Shown here: in pieces, positions 31,699 to 57,762 of the stretch
Numbering within the stretch: position 1 is the stretch's first letter
How the letters are laid out: the number at the start of each line of letters is the position of its first letter
Assembly: GCA_963922205.1 (NCBI GenBank)
Contig: CAWUHX010000046.1
Location: forward strand, 62,001-126,000
Direction of reading: 5' to 3'
Source: Romanomermis culicivorax
Taxonomy: Eukaryota > Nematoda > Enoplea > Mermithida > Mermithidae
DNA: 64,000 nucleotides
Notes under the pieces: generated by a model
The model's database searches: none
Told to the model about the DNA's origin: nothing
The model's input: only the letters and a program-made list of their open reading frames with translations
Translations under genes and position numbers: made by a program

Positions 31699-31806
31699 CA
31701 TACATGCACGTGGGGGGGGGTTTGACTCCAGCAGATTTAACTTTTCCAGCAATGATTGAGAAGATGACGAAGGAAAATGAGCAAGAGAGAAAAAAAGTCG
31801 TCATAA

Positions 31807-33197
31807 TGTCACGTTTATCGGGGGAGCTGGGGAGGTTTGGGTATCACATCAGATAGTACCGCGTTTTAGACGTCACATTGATGGTGAACCATATCAGATT
31901 GATCCTATTACAGTGAGTAATAGGCTGTGACTCTTGATGGATACTGGCATTTTCCCCCTGGTTGGCGTTGGGGGCCTAACCTGGCGAATGGTGGCTATAG
32001 GGAGACCCATAGCTGGTACTCTCTGGTGTTGTCCTGGGGTCTTACTGTAGGGTAATGGACAACGCCGCCAGGCTAGGTGTGACAATCCCCGAGTCCTGCT
32101 CAGTGAGAGTGGGGACAGGGTCACCCGTAAAATGACCTGATCTGTGGGACCCGATTATGAACCAGACAGTCCCTTTTAGCCCGAACCTGAGAGGTGGAGG
32201 CCCTACTTATCTGGGGAAAAACCTGGGAAACCGACTTAAGAAGGTTTCCCCAACAAATACCCCACAAACAACAATAGTCCTCTGAGAAGACTCACCTAGT
32301 CCTGTTTCTCAAGCGATTCGACGAAATTGGGCGGCAAGTCCCTGGATACTTTCGGTCTTCTGGCACTGGGCGGGGATGCGATCCACACGAGTCCTAGCGA
32401 CGAGTTTCGGCTATCGGGAGGCGACTCTCCAACGTTTCTCTGCTAACCGGAGCGGTCGGACACCTGGCACTGATGGGCAGCGGGTACTGTAGACGGGTAA
32501 GCAGCGGACGCAGTAGAAGGGTATAAATTTATGCAAATTTATTCGATATAAGGCGGCGGACGCAGTAAGAGTAGATATTCGAATTTATTCAAATTAGGCA
32601 ACAGGCGGTGGACACTGACAACAAAATCGGACGCAGGGGTAAACCCAGGAATGAGCGAAAAATTAGAGAAACATGTCCTTTTAAGGACATGTTTGGCTAC
32701 AGCTGCAGCTTGGGCCGAGTTTCTCGGCGTCCAAGCTAACTTCTGCAGCTAGACGCGATGCAGAAGATGTCTATGAGCACATAGACATTTTTCGTTCACA
32801 TGCGTTTAGCACTGAGGCCGACTGCAGTGCCTATGCTAAGCATATGAACGTCTTTAGCTAAACTTCTTAGCTAGTCGTTTTTGCGTAACAAAAACGACGC
32901 TAATTTTTGGTGATAAGAGGTGCATGGAATGCACCAAAAATAGCCATGTGCTCGTGAAGCACGGCTGGCGGAAGTTTTTAGCTAAAGGGCCTACTGTAGC
33001 CCGCGTGCATAAAGAAATAAAAATACAACAAAACGAAACATAGAAATGCATGAAAAATATAAAAACGAGCACGAAATGCGTGAGTAGAAATCAAATAAAC
33101 GAAAACATGAATGAGTAATAAACAAAACATGAAGAAAAACAAAATATTGACATGTTTTGGATCACGTGACGTTGGGGAAATTGAGCGGCACGTGACA
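31807..33197 (-). repeat. 3' LTR (left copy)
   Basis: 1391 bp, starting TGTCACG and ending CGTGACA. On the - strand it carries two AATAAA polyadenylation signals (+ strand TTTATT at 32538-32543 and 32584-32589). A 26-base near-perfect palindrome lies at 32669-32694, and CACGTG E-boxes lie near the U3 end. Confidence 0.9.
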
Positions 33198-33720
33198 TGG
33201 CGGTCCTTCGAAAAAGGGCGTCCTCGTCCTTGTGGTGGTTGGTAGTGAGGTTTGTGCGGCATGTCCATGGTCATAGGTCATTCCAAGTTGTGACGGCGAG
33301 TGGTCGAATAGGTCCGTTGGGTTGTTGGCGGATAGAGCCTTCTTTGATCGTAATTCGTTCGACAGTATGGTAACCGGAAATCGTTGATGCGATAAGTTGC
33401 AGACATTGAATATCCTGTGCGAAAGTCTAGAACACAGAAAAGAAAAATTTTCAGGGCGAGATGTAGGCTATCGCAGAGGATGCGCCCAGTGAGGTATAGA
33501 TTATTGGGTTATGGCAGGGGATGCACCCAGTGAGGTGTAGGATATCGGGTTATCGCAGGGGATGCACCCAGTGAGGTGTAGGCTATCCCGGGGGGATGGG
33601 CCTAAGATGTGATGCTCTGGTTGCTGCACATTCTCTTCTATCCACTAAGATCCAGCATGGATAAGAATGGATACTTCGTGAGGGGCAGGGCAGTCCTTCG
33701 AAAAAGGACGTCCTCGTCCG
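33198..33720. repeat. Duplicated CCTTCGAAAAAGG segment near the 3' LTR
   Basis: A roughly 28-base segment built around GTCCTTCGAAAAAGG followed by CGTCCTCGTCC occurs at 33205-33232 (touching the LTR) and at 33691-33718. On the sense strand it reads GGACGAGGACG. It is the only purine-rich candidate for a polypurine tract here, although weak. Confidence 0.5.
33470..33600. repeat. Three 41-bp tandem repeats before the 3' LTR
   Basis: GGATGCACCCAGTGAGGTGT and following text starts at 33478, 33519 and 33560, giving an exact 41-base period in the non-coding stretch between integrase and the 3' LTR. Confidence 0.85.
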
Positions 33721-33753
33721 TAAGCGGGGACAATGAAGAAAAGACATCTTGGA

Positions 33754-36006
33754 TTAGGGGTCGGGGACCTCTGCATCAAGATGTGGGTCAATCAAATTCG
33801 GTGTAAGGTCCCGGCTTATTGAAGGAAACAACAAGGGTGCCGAATCCGTTGCCTGTGAAGTGGGAGGTGTATCCTCTGCTTCACTCGGTGGTTTAGGGGA
33901 CACGTAAAGTCGAAGCTGGTTGACATGTACAGTGTCTTCCTGATCCGTCTCGAGACGAAGTGTGACATTGGGATATGCCACACTTGTTACAAGATAGGGC
34001 CCATCGTAGATGGGCAGCAATTTAGGAGTGAGTCCACGTTTGCTGGAGGTGCGCAGTTTGAGCACCTGATCCCCTACTTTGTACGAGACATCTTGTGCCC
34101 TCCGGTCGTAAGACCGTGCATAGGCCTCCTGTGCTTTCTCAATCCGACTCTGGATTAAGGTTAACGCATTCGTGAAATGACGTTTGACCTCCATATCATA
34201 TGAGGAAACATTAATGATATGGGCCGGAGGGTTGAATGAGAGCGCGGCATCAACAGGGAGCATGGGTGTGCGACCGTACATAAGTTCAAAGGGGGAGTAC
34301 CCTGTTGACTCATTCATGCTGATATTGACGGCAAACACAGCGTATGGTAGGTGTTCATCCCAATCAGTATGTCCGTGGTGAACATACATACGTAGCCGTG
34401 TGGCTAGCATCTGATTAGCTCTTTCCACCTCGCCATTGGTCATCGGATGACAGGCGGTAGAGTGGATCTTCTTCGTTGAACAGATCGCAGTGATCTCAGT
34501 CATCAGTTTTGATGTGAAGTCAGTGCCACGATCGGACTGAAGAATCTGCGGTGCCCCGTGCCGGCAGACAATTTGCGTTACAAACCGTCGGGCTATGGTG
34601 TGTGCAGTGATATCCGGAGTAGCAAAAGCCTCGACCCATTTCGTAAAGTAGTCGATGAAGACTACGATGAAACGGTTGCCAGCTTCGCTAGTGGTCATTG
34701 GTCCCATACAGTCGACACCTACCCGATGAAACGGTCCCGTAATGGTGATGGGTTTCAGGGTCGCAGTGGTTTTCTGTCGAGCGGGCTTATTCCGTTGGCA
34801 AAGATCACACCGCTGACAGAAGGACGTGACATCCCGTCTGAGGGACGGCCAGTGGTATCTGCGAGCAATGAGCTGCGCAGTACGTTTAGCACCAAAGTGT
34901 CCAGCTAAGATGTCATCATGATGAGCCCGGATAATGGTAGTAACCATGGATCTGGGTATGACAATCTTATTGGACTCGCCTGTCCATTTCTGAAGAACGT
35001 TATCCAACAGATGGTAGCCTCGCACATCATCCTGGTCGCCCAGGGGCTTAAGAGAGCGAATGATGTCGGCTAACTCCGGATCCTCCAGCTGAGCAGCGAA
35101 AAGGTCGGGGTGCTGTGCACCAACCGATATCTCGGCATAAGACTCTGATCGTACCGGGCGCTCTGTGCCAACAGTGATCGGTGCTGAAATACTTGATCGC
35201 GCCAGGTGCTGCACACCATCGGTCAAAGTTCTCGATCTCGCCAGGTGCTGCACACCATCGGTGATCATCATAATGTGCCCCTCAGGTCTGTAAAGGGGAG
35301 TATCATCAATACTCTGACCGGTGAGGGAGTTAGGATCTGGCAGGCGTGATAATGCATCAGCATTACCATTAGACTGACCTTTTCGCGGCCGAATTGTCAG
35401 TTTGAATTCGGGGAGCGCGAGTCCCCATCGAGTGATCCGAGCAGAGGGGTTAGGCTTCTCCAACACTGCTTTGACCGCTGTATGGTCAGTCTGAACGACC
35501 ACCTCGTGCTGGAAGAGGTATGGCCGAAAGTGCTTGACGAAATGGACAACAGCGAGAGTTTCCAGTTCTGTAATGGAATAGTTTTTCTCAGCCACTGTTA
35601 ACCCTCGGCTGGCGTACGTGACAGGATGGTCATATCCAAATTCCTCTAACTGGCTTAGAACCGCTCCTATCCCCGAAATACTTGCATCAGTTTGAAGGAT
35701 AAAAGATTTCGAGAAGTCCGGATGGCGCAGGATAGGAGGGTTGGTCAGCAGGCGGCGGAGTTCGTCGAACGCCTCCTGCTGAGGTTTTGACCACTGGAAA
35801 GTGATTTCCTTCCGTAAGAGCTTGGTGAGTGGCTCGCTGAGCCGGGCACAACCAGAGATGAAACGCCTGTAGTAAGACACGAGGCCTAGGAAGGACTTGA
35901 TGTCTTTGGCGTTTTGTGGAATGGGTAGATTTTGGACGGCGGCCAGCTTGGCTTGGTCAGGTTCCAGGCCGCTCTGTGAGATGCGATAGCCTAGGTACTC
36001 TACCTC
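33754..36006 (-). CDS. pol: RT connection, RNase H and integrase (pol C-terminus)
   Basis: In frame with RT after its TAA. It reads EVEYLGY and the RT thumb (FLGLVSYYRRFI), then Ty3-type RNase H (LQTDASISGIGAVL, VVQTDHTAV). A linker follows with a duplicated DGVQHLARS repeat near 35215-35260. The integrase has an HHCC zinc domain (H...H...CQRCDLC) and a D,D-35-E core (GVDCMGP, QSDRGTDF, NGEVERA). A GPY/F-like module (YDGPYLV) precedes an acidic/Pro tail; there is no chromodomain. About 750 codons. Integrase inserts the DNA copy with a 4-bp duplication, consistent with the ATAA flanks. Confidence 0.88.
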   Translation of the reverse strand, partial: EVEYLGYRISQSGLEPDQAKLAAVQNLPIPQNAKDIKSFLGLVSYYRRFISGCARLSEPLTKLLRKEITFQWSKPQQEAFDELRRLLTNPPILRHPDFSKSFILQTDASISGIGAVLSQLEEFGYDHPVTYASRGLTVAEKNYSITELETLAVVHFVKHFRPYLFQHEVVVQTDHTAVKAVLEKPNPSARITRWGLALPEFKLTIRPRKGQSNGNADALSRLPDPNSLTGQSIDDTPLYRPEGHIMMITDGVQHLARSRTLTDGVQHLARSSISAPITVGTERPVRSESYAEISVGAQHPDLFAAQLEDPELADIIRSLKPLGDQDDVRGYHLLDNVLQKWTGESNKIVIPRSMVTTIIRAHHDDILAGHFGAKRTAQLIARRYHWPSLRRDVTSFCQRCDLCQRNKPARQKTTATLKPITITGPFHRVGVDCMGPMTTSEAGNRFIVVFIDYFTKWVEAFATPDITAHTIARRFVTQIVCRHGAPQILQSDRGTDFTSKLMTEITAICSTKKIHSTACHPMTNGEVERANQMLATRLRMYVHHGHTDWDEHLPYAVFAVNISMNESTGYSPFELMYGRTPMLPVDAALSFNPPAHIINVSSYDMEVKRHFTNALTLIQSRIEKAQEAYARSYDRRAQDVSYKVGDQVLKLRTSSKRGLTPKLLPIYDGPYLVTSVAYPNVTLRLETDQEDTVHVNQLRLYVSPKPPSEAEDTPPTSQATDSAPLLFPSISRDLTPNLIDPHLDAEVPDP

Positions 36007-37294
36007 TTAATGCGAGAATTTGCACTTGCTCAGTCTGAGCTTCATTCCACCCTGGCGAAGACGGGCGAACACATCTGCCAGGTGCTCAAGCATTTGGGTG
36101 TGAGAGTTCCCAAACACCAAAATGTCATCGTGATAGGTCAGAACCGTGCGCCATTGGATTCCAGTAAGAAGGAGGTCCATGAGGCGTTGAAATGTCCCTG
36201 GTGCGTTGCACAGACCGAAAGGCAAATAATTGAATTCGTAAAGTCCAATGGGCGTATTGAATGCCGTCTTCTCTTTATTCGCCTCGGCAATCGGGATTGA
36301 CCAATAAGCGTTAGCCTGATCAAGGGTAGTGAAATACTTCATACCCTTGAGTGTGTCAAGGATGTCATCTATCCGAGGGAGAGGGTAGACATCCTTTTTC
36401 ATGACCTCGTTAAGACCGCGAAAGTCAACACACATACGGTGAGAACCGTTTTTCTTGTGCACCAAGACAGTCTTAGTAGCCCACGGTGACGTGCTTGGCC
36501 GGATAATACCTTTCTCCTGGAGCGCCTTGACCTCCTGCATGATGAGATCCTTTTCCTTAGGTGAGGACCGATAAGGGAAACGGCGGACTGGGCGGGCATC
36601 GCCCGTGCTGATTTCGTGCTGGACGAGATCAGTGGAACCTGTGTCCTTTTCATCAAGAGCAGAAAGGTTAGTGTATGCAACCAGTAGGTCGAGTAAGGCT
36701 GCGCAGTCCCGAGGGGAGATATCCGGTGAGATTACAGCATTGGCCTCGACCCATTGACGATCGAGGATGGTGTCTGAGTCGATCGGTGATCCCCATGAGG
36801 GCTCACTATGCATTTGCACATGACCGATGGTCATGTGCGGGTAGAGAACCACGGAATGAGTATTGGGGTTGACTACTTGAAGTGGTATGTGACCGTTGGT
36901 CACGCTACTCACGCTCCCAGCAAAATATACGTTTCTTTGAGATCCCGTGAGGTGCTTTGGGAAGAAGGCCACCTCAGGTACGTTCGTATAGATTGGCGGT
37001 ATGGGTACAGTGAATCGTGTCACGGAGGGAGGCTCCAGAATTACCAAGTCCTTCAGGGGCAAGGCGCCGCGAGCAGAAGGTGGGCTGTGGATGAGACCGT
37101 CACAGGGGATTTTACTCTCCTTGAACTGGAGGAAGGATTTCTCCCAGTTCAAGCTGACACAATTGAACCGGCTGAGGAAGTTTGTTCCGAGGACCAGTTC
37201 AGCTGAACAGTTTTCCTGTATTTGGACCTGAATCCGTTCAGAGACATCAGCTACTGTTACCCTGATGTAGGCTGCTCCTAGCAGGGGATTGGGG
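36007..37294 (-). CDS. pol: Protease C-terminus and reverse transcriptase
   Basis: The frame opens at the protease end (VLGTNFLSRF near 37170) and continues into RT: VDFRGLNEV, YPLPRIDDILD, the first catalytic region FTTLDQANAYW, LPFGLCNAPGTFQRLM, and the active-site motif YHDD in VLTYHDDILVFG (the family usually has YLDD or YIDD). A TAA at 36007-36009 interrupts it after KCKFSH; the next codons, EVEYLGY, are the expected continuation. CAA to TAA is the simplest explanation. The enzyme copies element RNA into DNA inside the particle. Confidence 0.85.
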
Positions 37295-37952
37295 ACCCGT
37301 TGGCTGCGATAGGATGAGCCCTGGTTTGTGTAAGTGTCAAGTCGGGCAGCTGGGCCGCTAACTTGTGGTCCAGGAGTGAGAAAACAGCTCCTGTGTCGAC
37401 CAGTGCCTTTGCTTCCACCCAGTTGTTGAGGAGAACTTTGATATGGGGTGTCCGAATATCATTTGGGTAAAAAGCAGAGACCACATGACCTGAATCAGGT
37501 GTGGTGGCACCACTAAGGTAATTGGTCATACCGGACCGCTTTGGAATCGGCAGTCCTGTACGAAGTAGCAGACCTACTAGAGCATATCCGACGGAGGGTT
37601 CCGGGTCATTTAGAAGGGTGGACTCATCCTGTACCGTGAGTACGTGGTCTGAGTGGTCCCTTGGGCTCTGAGTAGCTCCTAGTGATTCAATCTCAGTGTC
37701 TGATAGCGGTGGCGCGGTTGGCACGGGTGATGCCGGAGCATCTGAATCACTTGGCTCACGGAATCGGCCTTTCTCTAGCGTAACTGGAGAGTTTCCAGGC
37801 GGAGGTCCAGGGCAACCTGACCCGTGCAAGGTCGACAAATGACGACTTGCCCGTCTGGAGGAAGTCCAGTATCCCCGGGTTGACCCATGTGATGAGGCAA
37901 CTGAGGAAGCCCGTGAGTGTGGCCGAGAGATGGACGAAGCCCTGGACCGCGA
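37278..37952 (-). CDS. Ser/Arg-rich segment and second retropepsin (pol N-terminus)
   Basis: In the same frame as env, directly after its TGA, about 38 codons are rich in Ser and Arg, then a Pro/Ser/Asp-rich stretch, then a typical Ty3/gypsy protease start with ALVDTG (active-site codons at about 37397). A stop at 37278-37280 truncates it. The missing half (LLGAAYIRV ... ELVLGTNFL) is found one frame over and runs into RT. A run of four C at the junction is one base short for continuity, so a one-base deletion, a sequencing error or -1 frameshifting is implied. Confidence 0.65.
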   Translation of the reverse strand, partial: SRSRASSISRPHSRASSVASSHGSTRGYWTSSRRASRHLSTLHGSGCPGPPPGNSPVTLEKGRFREPSDSDAPASPVPTAPPLSDTEIESLGATQSPRDHSDHVLTVQDESTLLNDPEPSVGYALVGLLLRTGLPIPKRSGMTNYLSGATTPDSGHVVSAFYPNDIRTPHIKVLLNNWVEAKALVDTGAVFSLLDHKLAAQLPDLTLTQTRAHPIAANGSPIPC

Positions 37953-40322
37953 TCATGATCCCGACCTGTGTGAATTTCTTGAGAGAGCACGGGTGTTCTC
38001 CCACCAGGGGTCGATCTGGTCAATCTCTGGCGTGGTCAGCAGGAGGGGTAATTCTACCCTGTCCAGCCGACAAACATTACGTTGGTAGTCAAACATAATG
38101 TTCTTGAACTGTTCTAAGAAGTCCAGTCCGAGTATAAGGTCAACAGGTGCCCAGAAGGGAGACGTAGTCTTGCACACATGGAGATGTATATCGATCCGTG
38201 TGTTCGGCTGGTGGTTTCCGGGCAACATGATTTCATATGGTCCCGAAAGGATGGTATGAACGGCTTTACCATTGATGCTCATCAATGGGTTAAAGTCGTG
38301 ATGTTGCTGGAACGCCATGACCGCCTTCGGACTTTCTTTAGCCAAGGCCTTATGAAGATGTTGGCTAATGATAGTGCGGGGGCAACCCGTATCAAGGAAA
38401 GCAGGAGTTTCCTTGGCATCCAGCAGCACGACGAAACACGGTGTGATTCGGTCAAGCTGGGAGGGCACATCGTTTTGCACGTAGTGAAAAGCAATCCAGC
38501 GATGGACTTTGCGGTAAAGACCCAACGGGGAGAAACGGCTAACAAACCGGACCTGTTTGCTCCGCAGATGGTAGCTGAGATAATAAGATACACCAAGATA
38601 GGCAAGGTATCCGACACGGATCAGCACCGTCAGGGTAATTAGGACGTTAAAGATCAACTGGACCGGCCCGCTCAGGACAGCATGCAAGCCCTGGACGAGG
38701 GTGTGTTGTTGACCCGTAATAACATGGTTTGCTGCCAAACCGACACCTTCCAGAGAGGCCTTGATGTCGGTTCCTACCCCTGCAAAAGCCTGGTAGATGG
38801 CGTCTGGTTGCAGGGATAGACCAGCGGTAAAGTTTACCAGCCGGTTTAGTACCGCTTCAATTTGCTCAGTCTTGTAAACGTACTGTTTAAAGAAGGCAAA
38901 GTTTGAAGGGGTCATCGCCAACTGGTCATGGAAGAGCGCTGGTGCATCAAAGTGAGTGATGTTGAAACCCTGTTTCCAGAAGAGTTCCAGTGGGATAAGG
39001 CTCACATGGACCGTACCAGATTCAGTAAACCAGCCCGAGCGATTTCGGAAAATCCCTGTAAAGTGGTGATGACAGGGCACAATTGGGCTAGATTTAATGA
39101 GATCTGGACCACCGGGGGTGGCCAAATAGATGGTGCCGCCGACCTGTACAGGTAAGTACTTGTAGCAAACGTTTCCCACCCGATACGAGTGGTAGAGGTA
39201 GGTGGCGTTGACCTTCTGACATGGCCATATTGTCAGTGCATCGCCTGTGAATTCCGCCGTCAGGTCATTCCTCTGGAGGAATGCCCGGGCACCCAATGTA
39301 GGATCGAAGCGAAGCAACTGCCAAGTCAGATCAAGATAGCGTTGAGCGTGAGAGCAGAGCTCAAGCCACGTGAACCGGAAACCGTTAATTTCGGACTCCT
39401 TGATCTGCTGAGCCAGATAGTTCAGTTTGGCATTGACAGGATCGGGACGTGTGTCCTTTGCCATCCTGAACAAGTTTTGGGTCAAATTGTATCTCCCGTG
39501 GATGCGTAGGAGAAGACCCTGATCCGTCCGGACTGTGGTGGAACGTAGTTCTGGGCACAGTTGGAAGATGCGGGAGTTTCCCGGGATCTTGAGGGCAACC
39601 TGTAGATCATCGATAATGATGTGGTTCCCTGACATGGACGCAGTGTAATTTCCCTTGGGGTGATAATGACACCGCGCCGTGAAGTTTTGTGCAGGCCAGA
39701 CAATGACCCCGTCTAGGGTAGTGCACTGACCTGCAGTGGGACTGCATCCACCTACATCGCCTAAGGTGCTCAGGGCCGTAGTGCCATCCCACGAAGTGAC
39801 TTGTCCCTCCTCGATGAAGAGGTTAGTCACTGTCTTGCAGACGTTGCTGCAGCACCATTCGTACATCACTTCCAATGTTTGGTTTGTGCTATAAAAGCCA
39901 GGGCGAATGCCGACAAGTTTTTGTGAGCCAAACATTCTAGTGCGATGTGCTAGCGTGCAGGCCGCAGGCGCTAAGTGCTGAGTGGTAATGACGTCTGCAG
40001 TGATGCCCCTAGAGCCGAAGAAACCAGTGTTGGTGCAGACTTTGCGGGTGCACAATGTGCATTTCCACGCTGTGGTTGTGATCGGGTCTGAGCTAGGAAC
40101 ATACACCGTAACGTTCATGCGCCGTGGGCTCCATGAAGATTGCGGTGGTTTACATTCTACACGCTGGGGTAACTCAAGTGGATGTCCGCGTCTTGAGAGA
40201 CCACAAAATTGATACTGAGCCGCCGGTGCTGACAAACTCACCCCTAGAAACAGTGATGTTACTATGGTCAATTTTATTATCAAAGACAACTGTACAAACG
40301 TGGTTTGTAAGTGTTCACACAT
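37953..40322 (-). CDS. Envelope-like glycoprotein fused to an aspartic protease
   Basis: The ATG at 40322-40320, 28 bases after the ORF X stop, opens 789 codons. Residues 1-36 are a signal peptide (hydrophobic core LTIVTSLFLGVSL, then SAPAAQ). Residues of about 37-550 form a Cys-rich ectodomain with about nine N-x-S/T sequons and CxxC-type motifs (CTLC, CCSNVC). A membrane span lies at about 554-584 (LIFNVLITLTVLI). The reading frame then runs without interruption through a basic linker into a retropepsin: the DTG active site at residue 644 (codon 38393-38391), a flap region, and LILGLDFL. It ends at TGA 37955-37953. By architecture it is a class I or III-like viral membrane glycoprotein; a relationship to monjiviricete/chuvirus-type glycoproteins is only a suggestion. 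Its position between gag and pol is abnormal. An AG acceptor (GGGCCAG) just before the ATG could serve a spliced env message. Confidence 0.7.
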   Translation of the reverse strand: MCEHLQTTFVQLSLIIKLTIVTSLFLGVSLSAPAAQYQFCGLSRRGHPLELPQRVECKPPQSSWSPRRMNVTVYVPSSDPITTTAWKCTLCTRKVCTNTGFFGSRGITADVITTQHLAPAACTLAHRTRMFGSQKLVGIRPGFYSTNQTLEVMYEWCCSNVCKTVTNLFIEEGQVTSWDGTTALSTLGDVGGCSPTAGQCTTLDGVIVWPAQNFTARCHYHPKGNYTASMSGNHIIIDDLQVALKIPGNSRIFQLCPELRSTTVRTDQGLLLRIHGRYNLTQNLFRMAKDTRPDPVNAKLNYLAQQIKESEINGFRFTWLELCSHAQRYLDLTWQLLRFDPTLGARAFLQRNDLTAEFTGDALTIWPCQKVNATYLYHSYRVGNVCYKYLPVQVGGTIYLATPGGPDLIKSSPIVPCHHHFTGIFRNRSGWFTESGTVHVSLIPLELFWKQGFNITHFDAPALFHDQLAMTPSNFAFFKQYVYKTEQIEAVLNRLVNFTAGLSLQPDAIYQAFAGVGTDIKASLEGVGLAANHVITGQQHTLVQGLHAVLSGPVQLIFNVLITLTVLIRVGYLAYLGVSYYLSYHLRSKQVRFVSRFSPLGLYRKVHRWIAFHYVQNDVPSQLDRITPCFVVLLDAKETPAFLDTGCPRTIISQHLHKALAKESPKAVMAFQQHHDFNPLMSINGKAVHTILSGPYEIMLPGNHQPNTRIDIHLHVCKTTSPFWAPVDLILGLDFLEQFKNIMFDYQRNVCRLDRVELPLLLTTPEIDQIDPWWENTRALSRNSHRSGS

Positions 40323-40350
40323 TTTCACAAATCTGGCCCGATGGGCAGTG

Positions 40351-41777
40351 TCAGATTTCTTTTTCGTCGCTGTCAGATGAGATGGGTTCCTGACCGGGGA
40401 AATCAAGGACCAACCCACCGCATGGGTGGATTTCCCGGAGGATGCCAACTTTTGGCGACCATGGGGTGACTGCCGTTGGGAACGGTGATTCCTCAACAAT
40501 GCTGACATCCTCATTAACCGGACGTAGGATCTCATCGACGGCCATGTGTTCGACGACGGGCGACTTGGTCGCAGCGGTCGGAGATGTCTCTTGGGCTGGC
40601 GCCGGTGATTTGGTTTGGGCTGCTGCCGACGATGTATTTTGGGCTGTTGCCGGCGGTGTGGGATCAGTTGCTGGTTCCTTGGCCCGAGGCGAGGAATCAA
40701 TAGTGACCATTTCTGTTGGCGGTGTAGCGGCAACAGGTGGCGCTGCTGTCGGTGATGTAGCGGCGACTGCAGGCAGGAGGATCCGACTGGCCTGTTTGAC
40801 TGCTCGGCGGACGGCATCGACCGAAGGCGAGGATGGCTCCCCGTCCAATAAGAACATCTCGACGGGCGAGATTGTGATAGTCCCATTGGCAATGAACTCG
40901 AGTGCCCGTCGGGCCACGTCGGGTCGTAAGAGTCGCATTGATACAGGTGCTGCGAGCACCACGTCGGCGGCCCTGAGCGCTTCGACATGCGATGGCTCGT
41001 TGAGCAGAGTCCATGGCAAATGCAGGTATTTCTTGGCCAGGTCAACTGACCAGATGGCCAACATCGCGTCTTGGACGGGCGATGGTGCTGTGAACAAGAA
41101 ATCGATAGAGTCGTAGACTGAGATAGATTCCTGGTTCCTACTCTAGGATCACCTGAAGAAGAAGGTAGTATACCTGACAAGTTCATGGGCTCGACCTGGT
41201 CGAGGGCTTCCATAGCCAAATCCGTATGGATCGCTGGCGGTGGTCCTGGAGGGACGATGCGGGCCGGTGGCGCCGAAGACGTCGTATCTGTGGCTGGAGC
41301 TGGCTCCACAGTCGTGGTTTTGGGGATGCAATACAATGCTAGGATGTTAGCGTGGCCAACAAACTGGGGTGTCGTCGAGGGGTCCATGGTGACCGGCATT
41401 GAATACCTCGGTGGTGGTGGTGGCAGCGGTATGTCCGATACATTTATCGGTAGGGGTACCTGAGCTGCTTGAACCACTGAAAATCCAATACTGATTACGC
41501 AGACAGGATAACACTGTTGTGAAGGATCTGTCAGGTGTTCAGCAAGTGCCTCGTCATCCAGATCAAGAGGATCTGGATGAGGAGGGCCATCGGTAGCCCC
41601 AACGGCTTTGTTGCGACGTATGGGCTGCCGATATTGGTTCCCCATCCCGTTAGGAGGGTGATAACCGTTTCTCTGATGATACACATTTGTCCCCTGGAAA
41701 GAATAACCAGTATTTTGGTAGTCATTCTCACCCGTGTTTGCCGGATTGCGCTGCGGACAGGCAGTTGATCGGTGCAC
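40351..41777 (-). CDS. ORF X: Pro-rich gag extension and Ala/Pro-rich 248-codon ORF
   Basis: I do not recognise this protein. From 41777 to about 41140 the gag frame continues after the TGA with Gln/Asn- and Pro-rich sequence ([15 protein letters not shown]). Around 41110-41140 the protein-like frame changes by one base to the ORF at 41097-40351. That ORF has an ordered first half ([33 protein letters not shown]) and an Ala/Pro/Thr-rich acidic tail ending SSDSDEKEI. The original frame stays open here but reads Arg/Gln/His/Ser-rich, like a shadow. It may be a gag C-terminal domain or an accessory protein. A one-base frameshift or a separate translation start would be needed. Confidence 0.5.
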
Positions 41778-42893
41778 TCACACTTGACGACAATGAGGGC
41801 ATGGCCTATCACATCGGTTCGTGGGGTGGGCATGTGTACGGCAAAAATAACATCGACCACCGTTAGCGGTGTTGTTACCGGGAGCGGCACCGGTGGGACG
41901 CTGGGCCTGGCAGTCAGCGTCACTATGTGTACACAGTCCGTGGAAGGAGCACGTTTGAAGGTGTGCTCCCGACGAGCGTCGCCCGGCGGACTGATTTGGT
42001 GTTGACATCTGTGGAGGTGGCATCTGCTGGATTGGCGCTGGTGCATGTTGCTGGGCCCTAAGCTTCGCTACGTGGGCCGTTAGCCTGGCCATTTCCTGTT
42101 TCAAGCGGCGAACCTCATCGGCGGAGGATGATGACGTTTGAGCGTTGCTCTGACGACCATTAGCGCTTCTGTTAGGCATATCGGGATTATATCCGGTGTG
42201 TTTAGGTTCTGAAGAGAAAATGGGGTTAGATGGTGCGGTGTACCGAATCTCGTCCCGGAAGATTTGGGATTCTGCATAACAGGCTGCCTTGAGTGTCTCT
42301 TCAAGAGTCGTAAACTCCCTAAACTTGATACTATCTCGGAGGACCAGTTTCAATCCACGCAGAAAGATAGGTTTGATGATAGAATCTCTGACATCCGTCG
42401 CGATATCTGAATACGCTACCCTGGACAGTCTCTTGAGGTGCTCAAGGTAGACTATTGCGGACTCGGTCAGCTTCTGCAGTCGATCTTGGATCAGCTGCTG
42501 ATGCAGATCAGAGTCGCACCCTACCGGAAAATCTCTCCGTAGAAAAGCCGTAAACTCTTCGTAGCGGGTAGGTTGTGGAGTGCTGCTGCTAAAGTCCCGG
42601 TAGGAGGCAAGAGCAGGACCCGTAAGGCATGACTCCAGAAAGGCGATTTTATACGCATGATCCGTTTCGCTTACACCCTGGAGTGTAAAGAAACGAGTAA
42701 GATGCGACATAAAATCTGTGATAGACTCACCTAAAGCACCGGAGAAGGTTGGAGGGGCCATAAAGCTGGACACGGGAGTATGCCTCCAACCATTCATGGC
42801 CTCTAACTTTTGGTTGAGGGGTCCAAGAGCATTCTCAAATGCTGCCTGGACCTTGTTCTCGATCTGTGAAGGGAGATCAGTTTCCGACTTCAT
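41778..42893 (-). CDS. gag: Gag (capsid and zinc knuckle)
   Basis: 371 codons. The middle is a Ty3/gypsy capsid-like helical region (FSGALGESITDFMSHLTRFF, YRDF, LRRDFPVG). A coiled coil lies at about residues 258-284. A CCHC zinc knuckle lies at 348-361 with exact C-x2-C-x4-H-x4-C spacing (CYFC...H...C). A second CxxC (365-368) is followed three codons later by TGA; the same frame then continues V-H-R-S-T-A-C, so the stop splits a possible second knuckle. It forms the particle and binds RNA (family knowledge). Either the TGA is a nonsense change (CGA to TGA would explain it) or it is a gag readthrough site. Confidence 0.85.
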   Translation of the reverse strand: MKSETDLPSQIENKVQAAFENALGPLNQKLEAMNGWRHTPVSSFMAPPTFSGALGESITDFMSHLTRFFTLQGVSETDHAYKIAFLESCLTGPALASYRDFSSSTPQPTRYEEFTAFLRRDFPVGCDSDLHQQLIQDRLQKLTESAIVYLEHLKRLSRVAYSDIATDVRDSIIKPIFLRGLKLVLRDSIKFREFTTLEETLKAACYAESQIFRDEIRYTAPSNPIFSSEPKHTGYNPDMPNRSANGRQSNAQTSSSSADEVRRLKQEMARLTAHVAKLRAQQHAPAPIQQMPPPQMSTPNQSAGRRSSGAHLQTCSFHGLCTHSDADCQAQRPTGAAPGNNTANGGRCYFCRTHAHPTNRCDRPCPHCRQV

Positions 42894-44690
42894 GTCCGAG
42901 GGTTCGTTCTCCCGTAAGGTGGTTAGAACAGACGTTCTTGCCTGTGAAGCAATTAAGTCAAATTGAATAGAGAGCGGCTCACTGGTCTGTACAGGCTGGG
43001 TACTGAGACGGCAGGAACGACGAGGTGTCTCTATTGTGTAAAGTGAAAGTGAGTACTACTTTTGAATTCGCGGCGAAAGAGCGCGTGAATTCGAAAAACG
43101 CGTGCGCGACGGCATTTGTGACGTAAACTTGGTTTAGTTTAAGACTAGCGACCACGAAAATGGAGCTAGAATTGGAATATGATTGTAAGATGCAAGATCA
43201 GAGTACACCAGGGTGACGCAGAAGGGAATTTATCTGGTCGCCCATGATGGATATAGGCCTGGCCCTGAGATATGGGGGAATCGATCCCGACCAAAAGGAT
43301 GTAAAGTTGGGGCCTGGACCCGGCAATTGGAATAGCCGAAAAGGACAGAAGAATAGATATAAAAGGAGAGAAAAGGCGGTTTTCCTGCCGAGAAATAAGA
43401 TGACGGATGAACCTGCTCAGGAGGGATTTTTCCTGGAGGTTGGACCGTTTGTACTAGTTTACAAACCTTGGGGCGAGGCGGACTCGTAGCCGGCAAGATC
43501 CTACTCACCAGGAGTAGCGCATAAAGTGGCATAAAGTAAAAAGGGTGTGGACAACTGAAAGTGAACTTAAAAGGGAGCAATAAATAGGGACAAAACTAAT
43601 TTACAAACCCAGCTATGCAAAGGGGCAGCGCAGTTACGCAACGGGCCTCACTCGCCAGGAGTGATTGCGATCTCTGTACAGTGTGATGGACTATACAGAG
43701 GTTCCGTGCTGGACGACATTCGCAAGTAACTTACAGCCGTGTTCGAAACGGGAGCCTGCATTCCGAACAGAACGGACACTCTCCAGGAGTATTATATACA
43801 GCTGGTGGCCAGGTTGCCAATCACTGAGATGTAATGAGGCTCGCAGGTCACACAGTGGAAGAGAGAGAGAGAGCACGGGTACCAAGGGTGCTATTCTGAC
43901 ACACTCAGTCAGTTAAGATGAATTTACTCTGGATGTCTTGAGGGCGCACCCGAAAACATCTAAGGGATCACGGGTAAAAGTTGTCCCTGGGTGAATTATT
44001 GAGTGTAAATAACTGAGGCCGACCCAGTTATGTATTGAGGCGTACTCAATACCTTCGCTGAGGCAGACTCAATGGTGCCTATTATATTACATGACTAACA
44101 GGGGTGGACTGCGGAGGCGGACTCTGGGTCAGTGGCAACTCTAGCGCGGGCATTGTTAAGCCAGTTAACGAAGGCGTTCAAGTGAATAAAATATGACAGG
44201 GGGTCCTATACACTCTAGGCCCAACCGGAGGCTGTGCCGCGGTCCCTCGGGAACCACTACGGCCGGGACACTAAAGAAGATCTATGTATGACAGCTCCAT
44301 GAGATGAAAGAGAATGAGTGAATTTAGATAAGAAATTTACAAGAAGGCTACTGAACCCTTGCAGACGTCAAACACGGGCAGTACTGACTGCAAATGCCTA
44401 CCATCTACACGAGTTAAACAACCAACCCAGCTGAGGCCAAGTGTAACTCGTTCAAACCTGCAGTTAAAGCTTAAAGGCAGCCACATGCTGATCAATAGTG
44501 CCGCTACCCCGGCGGACAACCTGATCAGTACATGGACTAGAGAGCATCTCAGGTAGTGTATGTATGTGGACTGATGTTTCCCAGGCATCAGTCCCAGACA
44601 CACACCAACCCTTTGGCAAGAGCAGTAGGTGAAAGGATCATGCGCCAGCAACCACCTACAACTCAAGTGGAATACCCAAAGGACCGACAG
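42894..44690. other. Distal leader of the retrotransposon
   Basis: About 1.8 kb between the repeat array and gag. Phrases such as GAGGCGGACTC and CCAGGAGTA recur weakly. The ORFs here lack protein-like composition. It should contain the packaging signal, and perhaps the splice donor for a subgenomic env message. Confidence 0.4.
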
Positions 44691-45400
44691 TAACCTGGTG
44701 CTGACGTCAAAAGGTAAGGGTATGAACCAACACATGACCTTGGTGCTGACTACAGGTGCCTGGGATAAGAGTATTCAAGTATCATGTCGCAGTTGCAGAC
44801 GCCAGGGGTAAGTGCCTAAGGCCAGCAGATCCCTGCAGTAACACGTAATGTTGCCGTTGCAGACGTCAGAAATAGGATCATGTAACCTCAATTCCTGCTG
44901 CGGGAACATGATACATTGTCATTGCTGACATCAGCAATAGGGCCCTGAAGCCAACTATCAGTATACAGCAACACGTGATGGTGCCGTTGCTGATGTCAAA
45001 AGGTGGAACCACGGGTCCAATACCTTAAGTCAATGACATGAGATGCAGTTGTTGCAGACGTCAGATGTGGCACCCGTAAGACCTGCACATCTTTGAATAG
45101 TGACACGGTGCGTCACCATTGCTGACGTCACAGATGGGGGTGCAGGGGACCAGCCGAATCTGTTGCAACAACGTTAGCTTCAGCTGTTGCAGATGTCAGA
45201 AGTCAGTACTGCAGGAGTATTAACTAAAGACAACAACATGTAATGTCACCATTGCTGACGTCAGGAGTAGAACCCGGAGGGCTACCCACCCCTTAAAGCA
45301 ACAGCAAGTGAAGCAGCTGTTGCAGACGTCAGTGGTTGCATCCGTGAGGCTGAACCACACAACAACAACAACCCGTAACGCTGTTGTTGCTGACGTCAAA
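44690..45400. repeat. Array of GTTGCwGAyGTCA units in the retrotransposon leader
   Basis: The core GCwGAyGTCA lies at about 44702, 44795 (degenerate), 44862, 44926, 44992, 45057, 45124, 45192, 45257, 45325 and 45392, mostly 64-68 bases apart, with a further copy at 44364. From 45057 onward GCAGAyGTCA and GCTGACGTCA alternate strictly, suggesting a dimeric unit of about 132 bases. Several copies contain the full palindrome TGACGTCA, the CRE site bound by CREB/ATF bZIP factors. The array lies between the 5' LTR and gag, as the Su(Hw) insulator array does in Drosophila gypsy. Confidence 0.7.
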
Positions 45401-45540
45401 GAGCATGACCCGTAAAGTCTATGGTCTAGATGCAACAACCCGAAAATAGAAGAGAACAGACCTTACAGTAAGTAGAAATGAAAAAGAGAGAGAAACTTAC
45501 GTAAGGGTGTCATACTGTAGCAGTGGCGTGAAAAACGGAA

Positions 45541-45573
45541 TTTTTTTTTTTTTTTTTTTTTTCTTTTTTTTTT
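45541..45573. repeat. Poly(T) tract in the leader
   Basis: 32 T in 33 bases, broken by one C; A-rich on the sense strand of the element. Confidence 0.95.
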
Positions 45574-46049
45574 CGCCACTCAGCTGACCGAAGAAGAAAA
45601 TTGGGGGAAAGAATAACAGAAAAGCAGAAAATACGAGATTTGGACATACGCGTGTTAAATGTGTAAACAGTAGGTGTAAAATTTTTGGGGCCGGAGAAGT
45701 GAGCAACTCTGACAGTTTCCGGCGAAACACAAAAATACTGTACACAATTAACAGATTGCAGCCACGTATGACGTCCAGAATCATAGGTGGAGGGTGTACT
45801 GTATCATAGGGTCATGGACCACTGACAGTCAGGAGAGGCCGTCAACCCCTACAGCTGTGATACCAGTACCCGCGTATGGGTATACTGTAGTTACAGTACG
45901 GGGAATGGACACAGGCGTACTGTAACGGCACCCACCCTGAGGGTTACAGTATACCACCCAAACGGACAGAGGGGGGAAATAAAGGAAAAAAAACAAATGA
46001 TGTAGTTTACAACACAGACTAAATAGTTAGAAGATACGAGATTTCTCAG

Positions 46050-46560
46050 AGGAGGAATACAGAATACTCGATATATAACTCGACTCTGGGGCAAATAACT
46101 CAAATCTGATGACATTTAACTCGGCTCTGGGGGTAAATAACTCGCCTCAGGGGAATTTATTACTCACAGGGGCGATACACACGCATGAGATAATTATTTA
46201 CACATATAGATCACATGTAGATCACTCGTAAGGGCGATTTCTGTCTTACAGTAATTAGACTTGATTTTAAGGGACAAATTCCCGACCTACAGTAATAGCT
46301 CTCGGTGCCACAGGAAAAATTTCCGACTTACAGTAATAACACTCGACTTGAGGGGAAGTTTCCGACCTACAGTAGTGGTAATCCGAAATGAGGGACATTC
46401 CCGACCCATTAGGCAGTAAACCCGAATATGGGGGGGTCTTTGACTTATTGGATGGCTAGTACCCGATTTTAAGGGGGCTTGTCCGACTTAAAATGGGAAT
46501 TGACCCGACCTGGGGGTAGTTCCCACCCAAGGGTGAAGTTTTTTGCACTTAAGGGCGAGT
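46050..46560. repeat. Degenerate repeats in the proximal leader
   Basis: Roughly 45-60-base units containing CTCGACTTGAGGGGAA, TTCCGACCTACAGTA and similar recur between the PBS and the middle of the leader. TACAGTA occurs in several of them. They are non-coding. Confidence 0.5.
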
Positions 46561-46575
46561 GCCAGACTTAAGGTC

Positions 46576-46593
46576 GATTTTCCAGCCTCGCCA
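46576..46593 (-). promoter_or_regulatory. Primer-binding site
   Basis: Directly after the 5' LTR, with no gap, the - strand reads TGGCGAGGCTGGAAAATC, a typical TGG-starting PBS. I cannot assign the primer tRNA with confidence; it would need a 3' end of ...CCUCGCCA. The other inner boundary also starts TGGCG (33198). Confidence 0.65.
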
Positions 46594-47992
46594 TGTCACG
46601 TTTATCGGGGGAGCTGGGGAGGTTTGGGTATCACATCAGATAGTACCGTGTTTTAGACGTCACATTGATGGTGAACCATATCAGATTGATCCTATTACAG
46701 TGAGTAATAGGCTGTGACTCCTGATGGATACTGGCATTTTCCCCAGGCTCCCCTGGTTGGCGTTGGGGGCCTAACCTGGCGAATGGTGGCTATAGGGAGA
46801 CCCATAGCTGGTACTCTCTGGTGTTGTCCTGGGGTCTTACTGTAGGGTAATGGACAACACCGCCAGGCTAGGTGTGACAATCCCCGAGTCCTGCTCAGTG
46901 AGAGTGGGGACAGGGTCACCCGCAAAATGACCTGATCTGTGGGACCCGATTATGAACCAGACAGTCCCTTTTAGCCTGAACCTGAGAGGTGGAGGCCCTA
47001 CTTATCTGGGGAAAAACCTGGGAAACCGACTTAAGAAGGGTTCCCCAACAAATACCCCACAAACAACAATAGTCCTCTGAGAAGACTCACCTAGTCCTGT
47101 TTCTCAAGCGATTCGACGAAATCGGGCGGCAAGTCCCTGGATACTTTCGGTCTTCTGGCACTGGGCGGGGATGCGATCCACACGAGTCCTAGCGACGAGT
47201 TTCGGCTATCGGGAGGCGACTCTCCAACGTTTCTCTGCTAACCGGAGCGGTCGGACACCTGGCACTGATGGGCAGCGGGTACTGTAGACGGGTAAGCAGC
47301 GGACGCAGTAGAAGGGTATAAATTTATGCAAATTTATTCGATATAAGGCGGCGGACGCAGTAAGAGTAGATATTCGAATTTATTCAAATTAGGCAACAGG
47401 GGGCGGACGCTGACGACAAAATCGGATGCAGGGGTAAACCCAGGAATGAGCGAAAAATTAGAGAAACATGTCCTTTTAAGGACATGTTTGGCTACAGCTG
47501 CAGCTTGGGCCGAGTTTCTCGGCGTCCAAGCTAACTTCTCCAGCTAGACGCGATGCAGAAGATGCCTATGAGCACATAGACATTTTTCGTTCACATGCGT
47601 TTAGCACTGAGGCCGACTGCAGTGCCTATGCTAAGCATATGAACGTCTTTAGCTAAACTTCTTAGCTAGTCGTTTTTGCGTAACAAAAACGACGCTAATT
47701 TTTGGTGATAAGAGGTGCATGGAATGCACCAAAAATAGCCATGTGCTCGTGAAGCACGGCTGGCGGAAGTTTTTAGCTAAAGGGCCTACTGTAGCCCGCG
47801 TGCATAAAGAAATAAAAATACAACAAAACGAAACATAGAAATGCATGAAAAATATAAAAACGAGCACAAAATGCGTGTGTAGAAATCAAATAAACGAAAA
47901 CATGAATGAGTAATAAACAAAACATGAAGAAAAACAAAATATTGACATGTTTTGGATCACGTGACATTGGGGAAATTGAGCGGCACGTGACA
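46594..47992 (-). repeat. 5' LTR (right copy)
   Basis: 1399 bp, about 98.7% identical to the left LTR, with an additional AGGCTCCC near 46745. On the - strand it opens TGTCACGTG and soon has TCACGTGA: two CACGTG E-boxes at the start of U3, where promoter and enhancer elements are expected. Confidence 0.9.
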
Positions 47993-48267
47993 ATAAAAAT
48001 GGAAATGACGTTGTAGTTTGACAATTTTTCTTAACAAATCATACTTGATTCCAAAAAAGTAACATGGAAACTTTAAAAGGTGCTGTCTAGGCAAATAGTT
48101 TCACATATCTGACTAAGATAGGTTGAAGAATATGCTGCTTGGATGTTAGAAGACTTCCTGAGACCTTTTCATTATCAAGAATGAAAAAAAATTTTGTATT
48201 CCACCCCCTGTCCTGGCTGACCCCCCGCAAAATTTCTATGCTGTGCACGTATGGTTGTGTCCGCAAT

Positions 48268-52267: not shown

Positions 52268-52389
52268 GACAGGATGGCCGAGCGGTCCAAGGCGCCAGAC
52301 TCAAGTGTTCTTACCACTTGCATTGATAAATATGTGAATAGTTTTCTGGTCCTCGAATGAGGGCGTGGGTTCAAATCCCACTCCTGTCA
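52268..52389 (+). tRNA. tRNA-Leu (anticodon CAA) with a 38-base intron
   Basis: The acceptor stem GACAGGA pairs with TCCTGTC; discriminator A. The D arm starts TGGCCGAG. The anticodon stem CCAGA pairs with TCTGG, with loop C-T-CAA-G-T once the intron 52306-52343 is removed. A long variable arm (CCTCGAATGAGGG) marks the class II leucine type. The T arm is GTGGGTTCAAATCCCAC. A T-run terminator follows at 52392. The intron position, one base 3' of the anticodon, is canonical for nuclear tRNA-Leu(CAA). Confidence 0.95.
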
Positions 52390-56599: not shown

Positions 56600-57762
56600 T
56601 TTCACTCTAATTCGCTAGCATCTCACGAAAAATACACATTTAACTTAGAAATTCGGATCTGAATGTTTCCGGACTTTACCCATCAGATCCCAGCTGAGGT
56701 ATTTATAATTAACTCTTTCAACTTGCATTTTACTAAAAAATTTCAGATTGCTGATACACTGGTTCCATTTTCCCAAAAGAAGATTACTGTTGTGGTTACT
56801 TGTCACATTCGACCACCCCAAATCTTGGCTGTAATTCGATGCTTTTGATCTTATATCGCGGCTCTTTTGATGCAAGAAAGAACCAACGCTGATGGCTGAA
56901 AAATTAAAATTCCACATTTTTGGAGGCCGTTTTAGTTTTACGGAGCTTACCGAAGTTCAACAAGTAAAGTTCAAAAATCATGGGCAGTGCACGCATACAT
57001 GCACGCGGGGGGTTGGGGGGGGTTTTGACCCCCAGCAGATTTTTATTGACCCTCAGCAGATTCTTGATGACCCCCAACAGATTTGACTATCCCAGCAATA
57101 ATAAAGAAATTGACGAAGGAAAATGAGCATAAGAGAAGAGAAAGTCGTCATGAAAATGGAAATGGTGCTGTAGTTTTCTAAACAAAGCATACTTGATTCC
57201 AAATGAGTAACATTAAAACTTTCAAAATTGCTGTCTAAGCAAACTATTTCACGTATCTATCTAATGAAGGTGTGAGAATATGCTGTTTGTATGTTAGAAA
57301 ACCTCTCCAAGACCTTTCTTTTCATTATCAAGAACGAAAAAAATTTTTGTATTCCACCCCTGTCCTGGCTGACCCCCAGCAGAATTTCTATGCTGTGCAT
57401 GTATGGCACTAATTTAATATTGAAAAGCTGTGGTTTTTTGAGAGCAAGTTTTTCACCGAAAAACACGTGTTTCTTCCCTGTATGACGTTAATTTAGAAAA
57501 TTTATTATTATCATAATATCTGTTCATTAGTCTTTCTTACAAAACACACCTAAATCGCCACTTGTTTTGGCAACATGCTAGAACGCGCATGCGTGTTCAA
57601 TGTATAATATATATGCAAGTTTTCATTAAAAAAGTCAATGCAAATCTTCTTGATCTTTGTTATGGCCTGTACAACCGCGTAAAATTGAAAAAAAACTTTA
57701 TTATATTCGACAATATAGAACAACAATAAATGATATATTCAGGGTTCAAATCCCAGTAGTTA
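56600..57762. repeat. Duplicated segment, copy 1 (with MITE A insertion)
   Basis: It aligns along its length with 61007-61733: GATTGCTGATACACTGGTTC, CTTATATCGCGG, CTTACCGAAGTTCAACAAGT, then after the MITE CCGAAAAACAC, GACGTTAATTTAGAAAATTT, and finally CAGGGTTCAAATCCCAGTA. Confidence 0.8.
56994..57405. mobile_element. MITE family A, complete copy
   Basis: About 412 bp with inverted ends CATACATGCAC / GTGCATGTATG. It is G-rich just inside the left end, with GACCCCCAGCAGA near both ends, and it is non-coding. The interior contains GTCGTCATGAAAATGG, the counterpart of the site into which the LTR element jumped in the 31.7-kb copy. Confidence 0.8.

Follow-up and report, generated by a model that had tools for sequence, protein, structure and literature searches.

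A Ty3/gypsy-Type Element of Romanomermis culicivorax with a Probable Class III-Type Envelope Protein inside Gag-Pol

Envelope-bearing gypsy elements usually carry env after pol and express it from a message of its own. The 64,000-nucleotide stretch of DNA analyzed here (the window; Romanomermis culicivorax assembly GCA_963922205.1, contig CAWUHX010000046.1, positions 62,001 to 126,000) contains a provirus in which an envelope-like coding sequence lies between gag and pol and runs into a retropepsin-like domain. Do env and this protease form a gene with a start and an end of its own, or are they an internal part of one polyprotein? From comparison of the window copy with other copies in the genome, we conclude that this is probably a Ty3/gypsy-type element with a class III-type Env inside gag-pol, expressed as a Gag-Env-PR-PR-Pol polyprotein (PR, protease).

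The env-protease frame and its domains

On the minus strand at 37953-40322, 789 codons run from an ATG to a stop. They end a stop-free run of 1,274 codons; in 300 single-base shuffles of the element, the longest run was 316 codons. The frame and the protease that follows it have these parts:

40220-40322, minus strand: signal-sequence-like start of env, with hydrophobic residues 7-34
38670-40219, minus strand: env ectodomain, of the class III fusion-protein type by Pfam and profile matches
38586-38669, minus strand: single membrane span, residues about 552-579
38466-38585, minus strand: segment from the membrane span to PR1, predicted to be cytoplasmic
38040-38465, minus strand: PR1, an extra retropepsin-like domain (DTG...ILG), recognized by its motifs and by subthreshold RVP-type and Ddi1 matches
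37060-37499, minus strand: PR2, the ordinary gypsy protease, its halves in two frames in the window copy

Nine N-X-S/T sequons (residues 70-497) all lie N-terminal of the membrane span, and the ectodomain has 17 cysteines from residue 40 to residue 417. The PR1 motifs are D-T-G at residues 644-646 and ILGLDF at about residue 730, C-terminal of the span. The original prediction, made from the window sequence, had described an uninterrupted frame with an ATG, a signal-like start, a Cys- and sequon-rich ectodomain, a membrane span, and a DTG...ILG retropepsin in the cytoplasmic position; each of these can be read in 37953-40322, with the protease on the predicted cytoplasmic side. The glycoprotein also sits between gag and pol as described, after a gag with a Ty3-type capsid signal, before reverse transcriptase (RT), RNase H, and integrase (IN), and within long terminal repeats (LTRs).

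By its profile matches, the ectodomain belongs to the class III fusion proteins, of the herpesvirus or chuvirus kind. Env matches the Pfam family Monjiviricetes_fusion (PF24664) above the cut-off, with E values of 5.2e-13 and 1.7e-12. The ectodomain was aligned in five proteins including that of the window, two of which align only in part. Across these five, Pfam (E ≤1) gave Monjiviricetes_fusion in four, Glycoprotein_B in two, and BDV_G in two, and 16 cysteines are invariant in the three longest proteins. The five-protein profile matched three PDB chains at E 0.001-0.006, two named glycoprotein B (gB) and one ORF8, and a fourth, a gammaherpesvirus gB, at E 0.17. The PF24664 and gB matches bear out, at the level of sequence profiles, the proposed likeness to viral membrane-fusion glycoproteins. 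A PDB search with the single sequence of the 1,274-aa frame gave no match at E 1, and the patterns used found no env relatives in viral contigs or in prokaryote genome contigs. The relative P0006 has RKRR at residue 208, midway along the ectodomain. This possible furin site is absent in P0003, P0004, and P0005; the window Env has only two RR pairs, near its start.

PR1 matches Ddi1 chains at E 0.01. A protein search for PR1 relatives, with 158 candidates sharing words, found none at E ≤0.1.

Copies in the genome, selection, and a related family

Further copies were sought in the assembly of the window (359 Mb, 595 contigs). For env-PR1, 57 of 4,360 first-look candidates were scored. These are the window and 56 others at 95-97% identity, all beginning at residue 1 or 2 and ending at residue 789; 55 lack an inner stop, and 36 lie within open frames of at least 3,080 codons. 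For gag, there are 110 full-length matches including the window, with 62 in frames of at least 3,080 codons. The copies were studied as separate pieces, with the extent of a frame judged by length and position, and by these the long frames fit a span that begins with gag and closes with IN (window 43055-33754, about 3,100 codons). RT is followed by RNase H-IN in one frame in all 10 downstream pieces fetched from the 57 copies. Intact copies of the element exist, and the gag-env-PR-PR-RT-IN order with open frames is seen in copies other than that of the window.

Family members without the env block were looked for in 20 gag copies taken from the 110, outside the scored env matches. Env is at the expected place downstream of gag in all 20. 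It is one unbroken match to residue 780 in 12 of them and damaged in 8: cut by a contig end in L043, present only to residue 246 in L055, carrying an inner deletion in L048, and showing a frame slip in L041, L049, L053, L057, and L058.

The window copy is itself damaged, with an in-frame TGA after gag, a stop after PR1, and a TAA after RT. In intact copies, the frame continues beyond the point at which the 789-aa protein stops. The first codon of env is ATG in 11, TTG in 15, and TTC in 2 of 28 pieces, taken from the window and 27 other copies. Since the ATG is not conserved and the stop does not end intact frames, both ends of the 789-aa protein are peculiar to the window copy. The original prediction had treated env-PR as a self-standing gene with its own start and an enzyme for a terminal tail. 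That part does not stand: in intact copies, env-PR is internal to a frame of about 3,100 codons, its start codon is not kept, and PR1 leads on into PR2 and pol rather than ending the protein. A separate gene with its own ATG, suggested by the window copy, thus lost support from the copy comparison.

Ratios of nonsynonymous to synonymous change (dN/dS) were pooled over all pairs of the 28 pieces. They are 0.09 for the ectodomain (516 codons) and 0.08 for PR1 (142 codons), 0.25 for the membrane span (28 codons), and 0.18 for the segment after it (40 codons). PR2 gives 0.10 in its N part and 0.05 in its C part. The spacer, with a stop in 3 of the 28 pieces, gives 0.25 (180 codons), and the linker gives 0.32 over 41620-41143 and is stop-free in all 28. 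Codon variants differing by a single change were synonymous in 120 of 162 cases in the ectodomain and 21 of 29 in PR1 (24% and 23% expected under uniform change). The p values for this excess, 1.1e-41 for env and 1.8e-8 for PR1, are only a guide because the copies are related and are not independent events. PR1 has both DTG and ILGLDF in 28 of 28 pieces, with no stop and no gap. Env and both proteases are under purifying selection. The 57 scored matches, the lack of an inner stop in 55 of them, and the dN/dS values for env and PR1 show that env-PR1 is not a chance frame.

A second family has the same placement of env. P0003, from an ENA record, is a protein of 1,186 aa that joins gag and env in a single frame; its gag is 26% identical to the window gag (E 3e-10) and its env 33% identical to the window env. 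When the same assembly was searched with P0003, 39 of 5,041 candidates were scored. These 39 env matches, here called family B, belong to open frames that reach 2,583 codons; 37 of them are preceded by a gag match whose frame has an identical reported length. In eight loci, there is one DTG each downstream of env, and dN/dS is 0.09 for env and 0.07 for PR. The sole protease seen in copy L012 shares 42% identity over 130 aa with PR2 (E 1e-36), represented by its counterpart in copy L004 of the window family, and has a weak partial match to PR1 (E 5e-4). Env between gag and PR is common to two families, and env after gag occurs in P0003 as well. Since family B has the PR2 counterpart only, PR1 is a peculiarity of the window family, having been either gained in that family or lost from family B. 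Some family B copies, such as L009 and L012-L014, join gag, env, and PR in a single frame of about 2,486 codons and have one protease.

The overprinted frame and the layout of the element

Between gag and env, a further frame overlaps the polyprotein frame, with splice-like signals upstream of it:

40351-41064, minus strand: ORFx, 237 aa, overprinted in a frame other than that of the polyprotein, between gag and env
41153-41172, minus strand: splice-acceptor-like CTTCTTCTTCAG, upstream of ORFx
47085-47093, minus strand: splice-donor-like TAG/GTGAGT, in the LTR

All 28 pieces retain the ORFx ATG. From there, ORFx reads through to its usual end, giving 229, 237, or 253 aa, in 25 of them and is shortened in L003, L018, and L024; except in L003, length differences after the ATG are multiples of three. 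Over 41142-40355, dN/dS is 0.24 in the ORFx frame versus 1.33 in that of the polyprotein, which is nonetheless stop-free there in 27 of 28 pieces. About 6% of ORFx-silent changes would create a stop in it, and 175 columns vary, so roughly 10 stops would be expected, by our estimate, if the polyprotein frame were free. The idea that 41142-40351 of the polyprotein frame is untranslated was dropped, since this frame stays open and the ORFx protein sequence is conserved as well. Pfam gave no match to ORFx at E 1. In five family B loci, there is no long second frame upstream of env, the longest having 100 aa.

The CAG of the acceptor-like sequence is kept in 26 of 28 pieces; one piece is altered and one is without the stretch. 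The LTR donor-like TAG/GTGAGT is present in 9 of 10 further copies, and the tenth fetched stretch does not contain it. Among the signals seen, the strongest kept splice-like ones point to ORFx as the product of a putative spliced message. A donor inside Gag near 42730 was also considered. All 10 copies looked at retain its GTGAGT, but this is Gag-coding sequence and is preceded by bases unlike those of the window, and the donor was not used.

The provirus, of the Ty3/gypsy type, is 16,186 bp long (31807-47992, minus strand). Its order on that strand is LTR, leader, gag, linker, env, PR1, PR2, RT, RNase H, IN, and 3' LTR, with these further features:

46594-47992, minus strand: 5' LTR (TGTCACG...CGTGACA), 1,399 bp
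46581-46593, minus strand: primer-binding-site-like TGG..., directly 3' of the 5' LTR, assigned by position only
41778-42893, minus strand: gag, with a Ty3-type capsid signal and zinc knuckles (seen by eye), ending at an in-frame TGA in this copy
41143-41777, minus strand: linker from gag to the overlap, in the polyprotein frame
36010-37263, minus strand: reverse transcriptase (RVT_1, PF00078, E 1.3e-31), followed in this copy by an in-frame TAA
33757-36006, minus strand: RNase H and integrase (H2C2, rve), by Pfam
31807-33197, minus strand: 3' LTR, 1,391 bp
31803-31806, with the other copy at 47993-47996: target-site duplication TTAT, read at both flanks

The two LTRs differ by 17 mismatches and one gap (98.2% identity) and have TG..CA termini, and the leader between the 5' LTR and gag is 3.7 kb long. 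The flanks of the element match two adjoining parts of a host repeat at 57074-57406 with 80-83% identity, and that repeat copy looks like an empty insertion site. Gag matches Ty3_capsid (PF19259) at E 1.1e-6 with 28.7 bits, slightly under the cut-off of 29.1. The pol matches in Pfam are RVT_1, RT_RNaseH_2, Integrase_H2C2, and rve, and the order PR, RT, RNase H, IN is present as in Ty3/gypsy. No BEL/Pao-specific family is among the Pfam matches to the window element, which gives a Ty3-type capsid signal. No env was found downstream of pol, where the IN frame ends 556 bases before the 3' LTR and no stop-free stretch overlapping this interval exceeds 101 aa. Three 41-bp repeats, 80% alike, lie between the IN end and the 3' LTR at 33466-33588.

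Elsewhere in the window, three host open stretches on the plus strand (1276-1680, 14726-15187, and 18104-18502) match PAN-type domains, one above and two below the Pfam cut-off; they are perhaps from one gene or a cluster. UBX exons are also present (Pfam), and both kinds of exon are in keeping with an animal genome. A tRNA gene with an intron-like insert at 52268-52389 (plus strand), which its sequence leads us to take as probably tRNA-Leu, has an Rfam match and was not reported by ARAGORN.

Proposed expression, alternatives, and related elements

We infer a polyprotein from the open frames and the absence of a kept env ATG. It would be translated from full-length RNA, and the segment at the start of env would act as an internal signal sequence, threading the ectodomain into the endoplasmic reticulum. 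Both the upstream Gag and the PR1-PR2-Pol portion, which follows the membrane span, would remain cytosolic. Env would be separated from Gag by signal peptidase. Anchored at the membrane C-terminal to Env, PR1 would release Pol from the tail of Env and might trim that tail, much as retroviral proteases trim R-peptides from Env tails; PR2 would mature Gag and Pol. The retention of two proteases suggests two jobs. ORFx would be made from a spliced message as an accessory protein, perhaps for RNA export, and a spliced env message would not be needed.

Several points weigh against this scheme. Its topology, cleavages, and protease roles are predicted from sequence, as are the class III fold and the fold of PR1. 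PR1 scores under the Pfam cut-offs (PF13975, 17.1 bits with a cut-off of 28.2; PF00077, 13.5 bits with a cut-off of 20.7), as does the N part of PR2 (18.2 and 18.0 bits for the same families). PR1 and PR2 are weakly similar (hhalign probability 10%, E 0.003), and a recent duplication of PR2 into PR1 was rejected on that ground. The signal-like segment has a dN/dS of 1.86 (34 codons). The window copy has stops after gag, PR1, and RT and a PR2 split over two frames. The 27 copies compared were taken from the 34 best-ranked others, with seven passed over, two of which have an inner stop; because best-scoring copies were chosen and inner-stop matches skipped, the sample favors intactness. A Gag:Env:Pol ratio of 1:1:1 from one frame would be unusual and does not account for how an excess of Gag is made. 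Env could be initiated separately at a non-AUG codon, since TTG begins it in 15 of 28 pieces, or be expressed from a spliced message, since all 28 retain an AG near 40390.

One alternative is that env-PR1 is a separate gene, expressed from a spliced message with its start near 40322, in the manner of errantiviruses but upstream of pol. The window ATG, with an A at -3, is the first ATG past the possible acceptor near 40390, and that AG is kept throughout the 28 pieces, the LTR donor in 9 of 10 copies. The ATG, however, occurs in only 11 of the 28 pieces, the frame continues through PR2 into pol in most copies, and the polyprotein frame over ORFx stays stop-free in 27 of 28 pieces though about 6% of the ORFx-synonymous changes make stops. 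We regard a separate gene as unlikely. PR1 could also be a functionless leftover of the recombination that brought env, as might be thought from its great difference from PR2 and from family B, whose single PR is the PR2 counterpart and which shows no PR1. Purifying selection and intact motifs make a dead leftover unlikely: PR1 has a dN/dS of 0.08, as strict as that of env and PR2, and its active-site motifs are present in 28 of 28 pieces with no stop or gap, in copies picked from the best matches. We give this explanation a very small chance. A last alternative is that a piece of a viral glycoprotein gene landed by chance within a single gypsy copy. This has in its favor the unusual place of env and nothing further; it faces 57 full-length scored matches, the presence of env, damaged in 8 cases, in all 20 further gag copies, strong purifying selection, and the same order in family B and P0003, and its probability is negligible.

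It is a different matter whether the element is of a kind already known. The comparisons below are with excerpts of the cited papers. Envelope-carrying gypsy elements are described there as widespread in metazoans (PMC13172572, PMC12859917), with type III fusion glycoproteins mentioned for some (PMC13172572), and the window element might be one more of these. The excerpts of both papers, however, mention neither env inside gag-pol nor a second protease, and we consider this reading rather doubtful. The window element shares with errantiviruses and other env-bearing Metaviridae a probable Ty3-type gag, a PR-RT-RNase H-IN pol, LTRs, a short target-site duplication, and an envelope gene; it differs in that env shares a frame with gag and PR and lies between them, and in its additional protease and overprinted gene.

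Other known systems share single traits with the window element. Anakin, a mosquito BEL/Pao element, likewise carries a viral-type glycoprotein in an LTR element, of the chuvirus type, beside Gag-PR-RT-RH-INT (PMC7642597). The domains of the window element fit Ty3/gypsy instead, and the excerpted Anakin account does not mention env inside gag-pol or two proteases. Jingchuvirales glycoproteins are described as sitting beside LTR elements in arthropods (PMC10084718), and Troyka as carrying no envelope (PMC12440569). Atlas virus of Ancylostoma ceylanicum (Belpaoviridae) likewise includes Env in one long frame, Gag-Pol-Env, of 2,828 residues (PMC9094657). As described, its Env is terminal and phlebovirus-like (class II), whereas that of the window element is mid-frame, class III-like, and within about 3,100 codons. 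Cer1 of Caenorhabditis elegans, with CERV, is a Gypsy/Ty3 element that encodes a polyprotein and, through splicing, an additional accessory protein, which is needed for genomic RNA export (PMC10309623). By that description, it is a possible parallel to ORFx, which differs in being overprinted between gag and env. Herpesvirus gB and the Monjiviricetes fusion glycoproteins match the ectodomain profile; the window Env differs from them in belonging to an LTR element and in being followed by a retropepsin-like domain. Among the top-ranked titles and abstract openings in the literature collection searched, we found no report of env between gag and pol together with a second protease, which is weak evidence of novelty. 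What we consider novel is that Env lies in frame within gag-pol, that a second protease is under selection, and that a gene is overprinted. Tentatively, the element may represent an unrecognized Ty3/gypsy lineage that makes Env inside Gag-Pol by an internal signal, with a dedicated membrane-held Env-Pol protease and a spliced, overprinted accessory gene.

The arrangement is not one expected from the usual relatives of the element. Capture of a fusion protein is thought to turn retrotransposons into retroviruses, and Env is then normally kept apart from gag-pol as a downstream gene; many well-kept copies with Env in the main frame point to a different solution to making and placing Env. The second, selected protease offers a direct test of whether separating Env from Pol can be a job of its own, and with two related families, one with PR1 and one without, the gain or loss of a protease becomes a testable step. 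ORFx seems a clear example of an LTR-element gene that overlaps another frame and is under selection. If the proposed polyprotein is correct, Gag, Env, and Pol would reach the membrane as one chain, and assembly and envelope incorporation would be covalently coupled.

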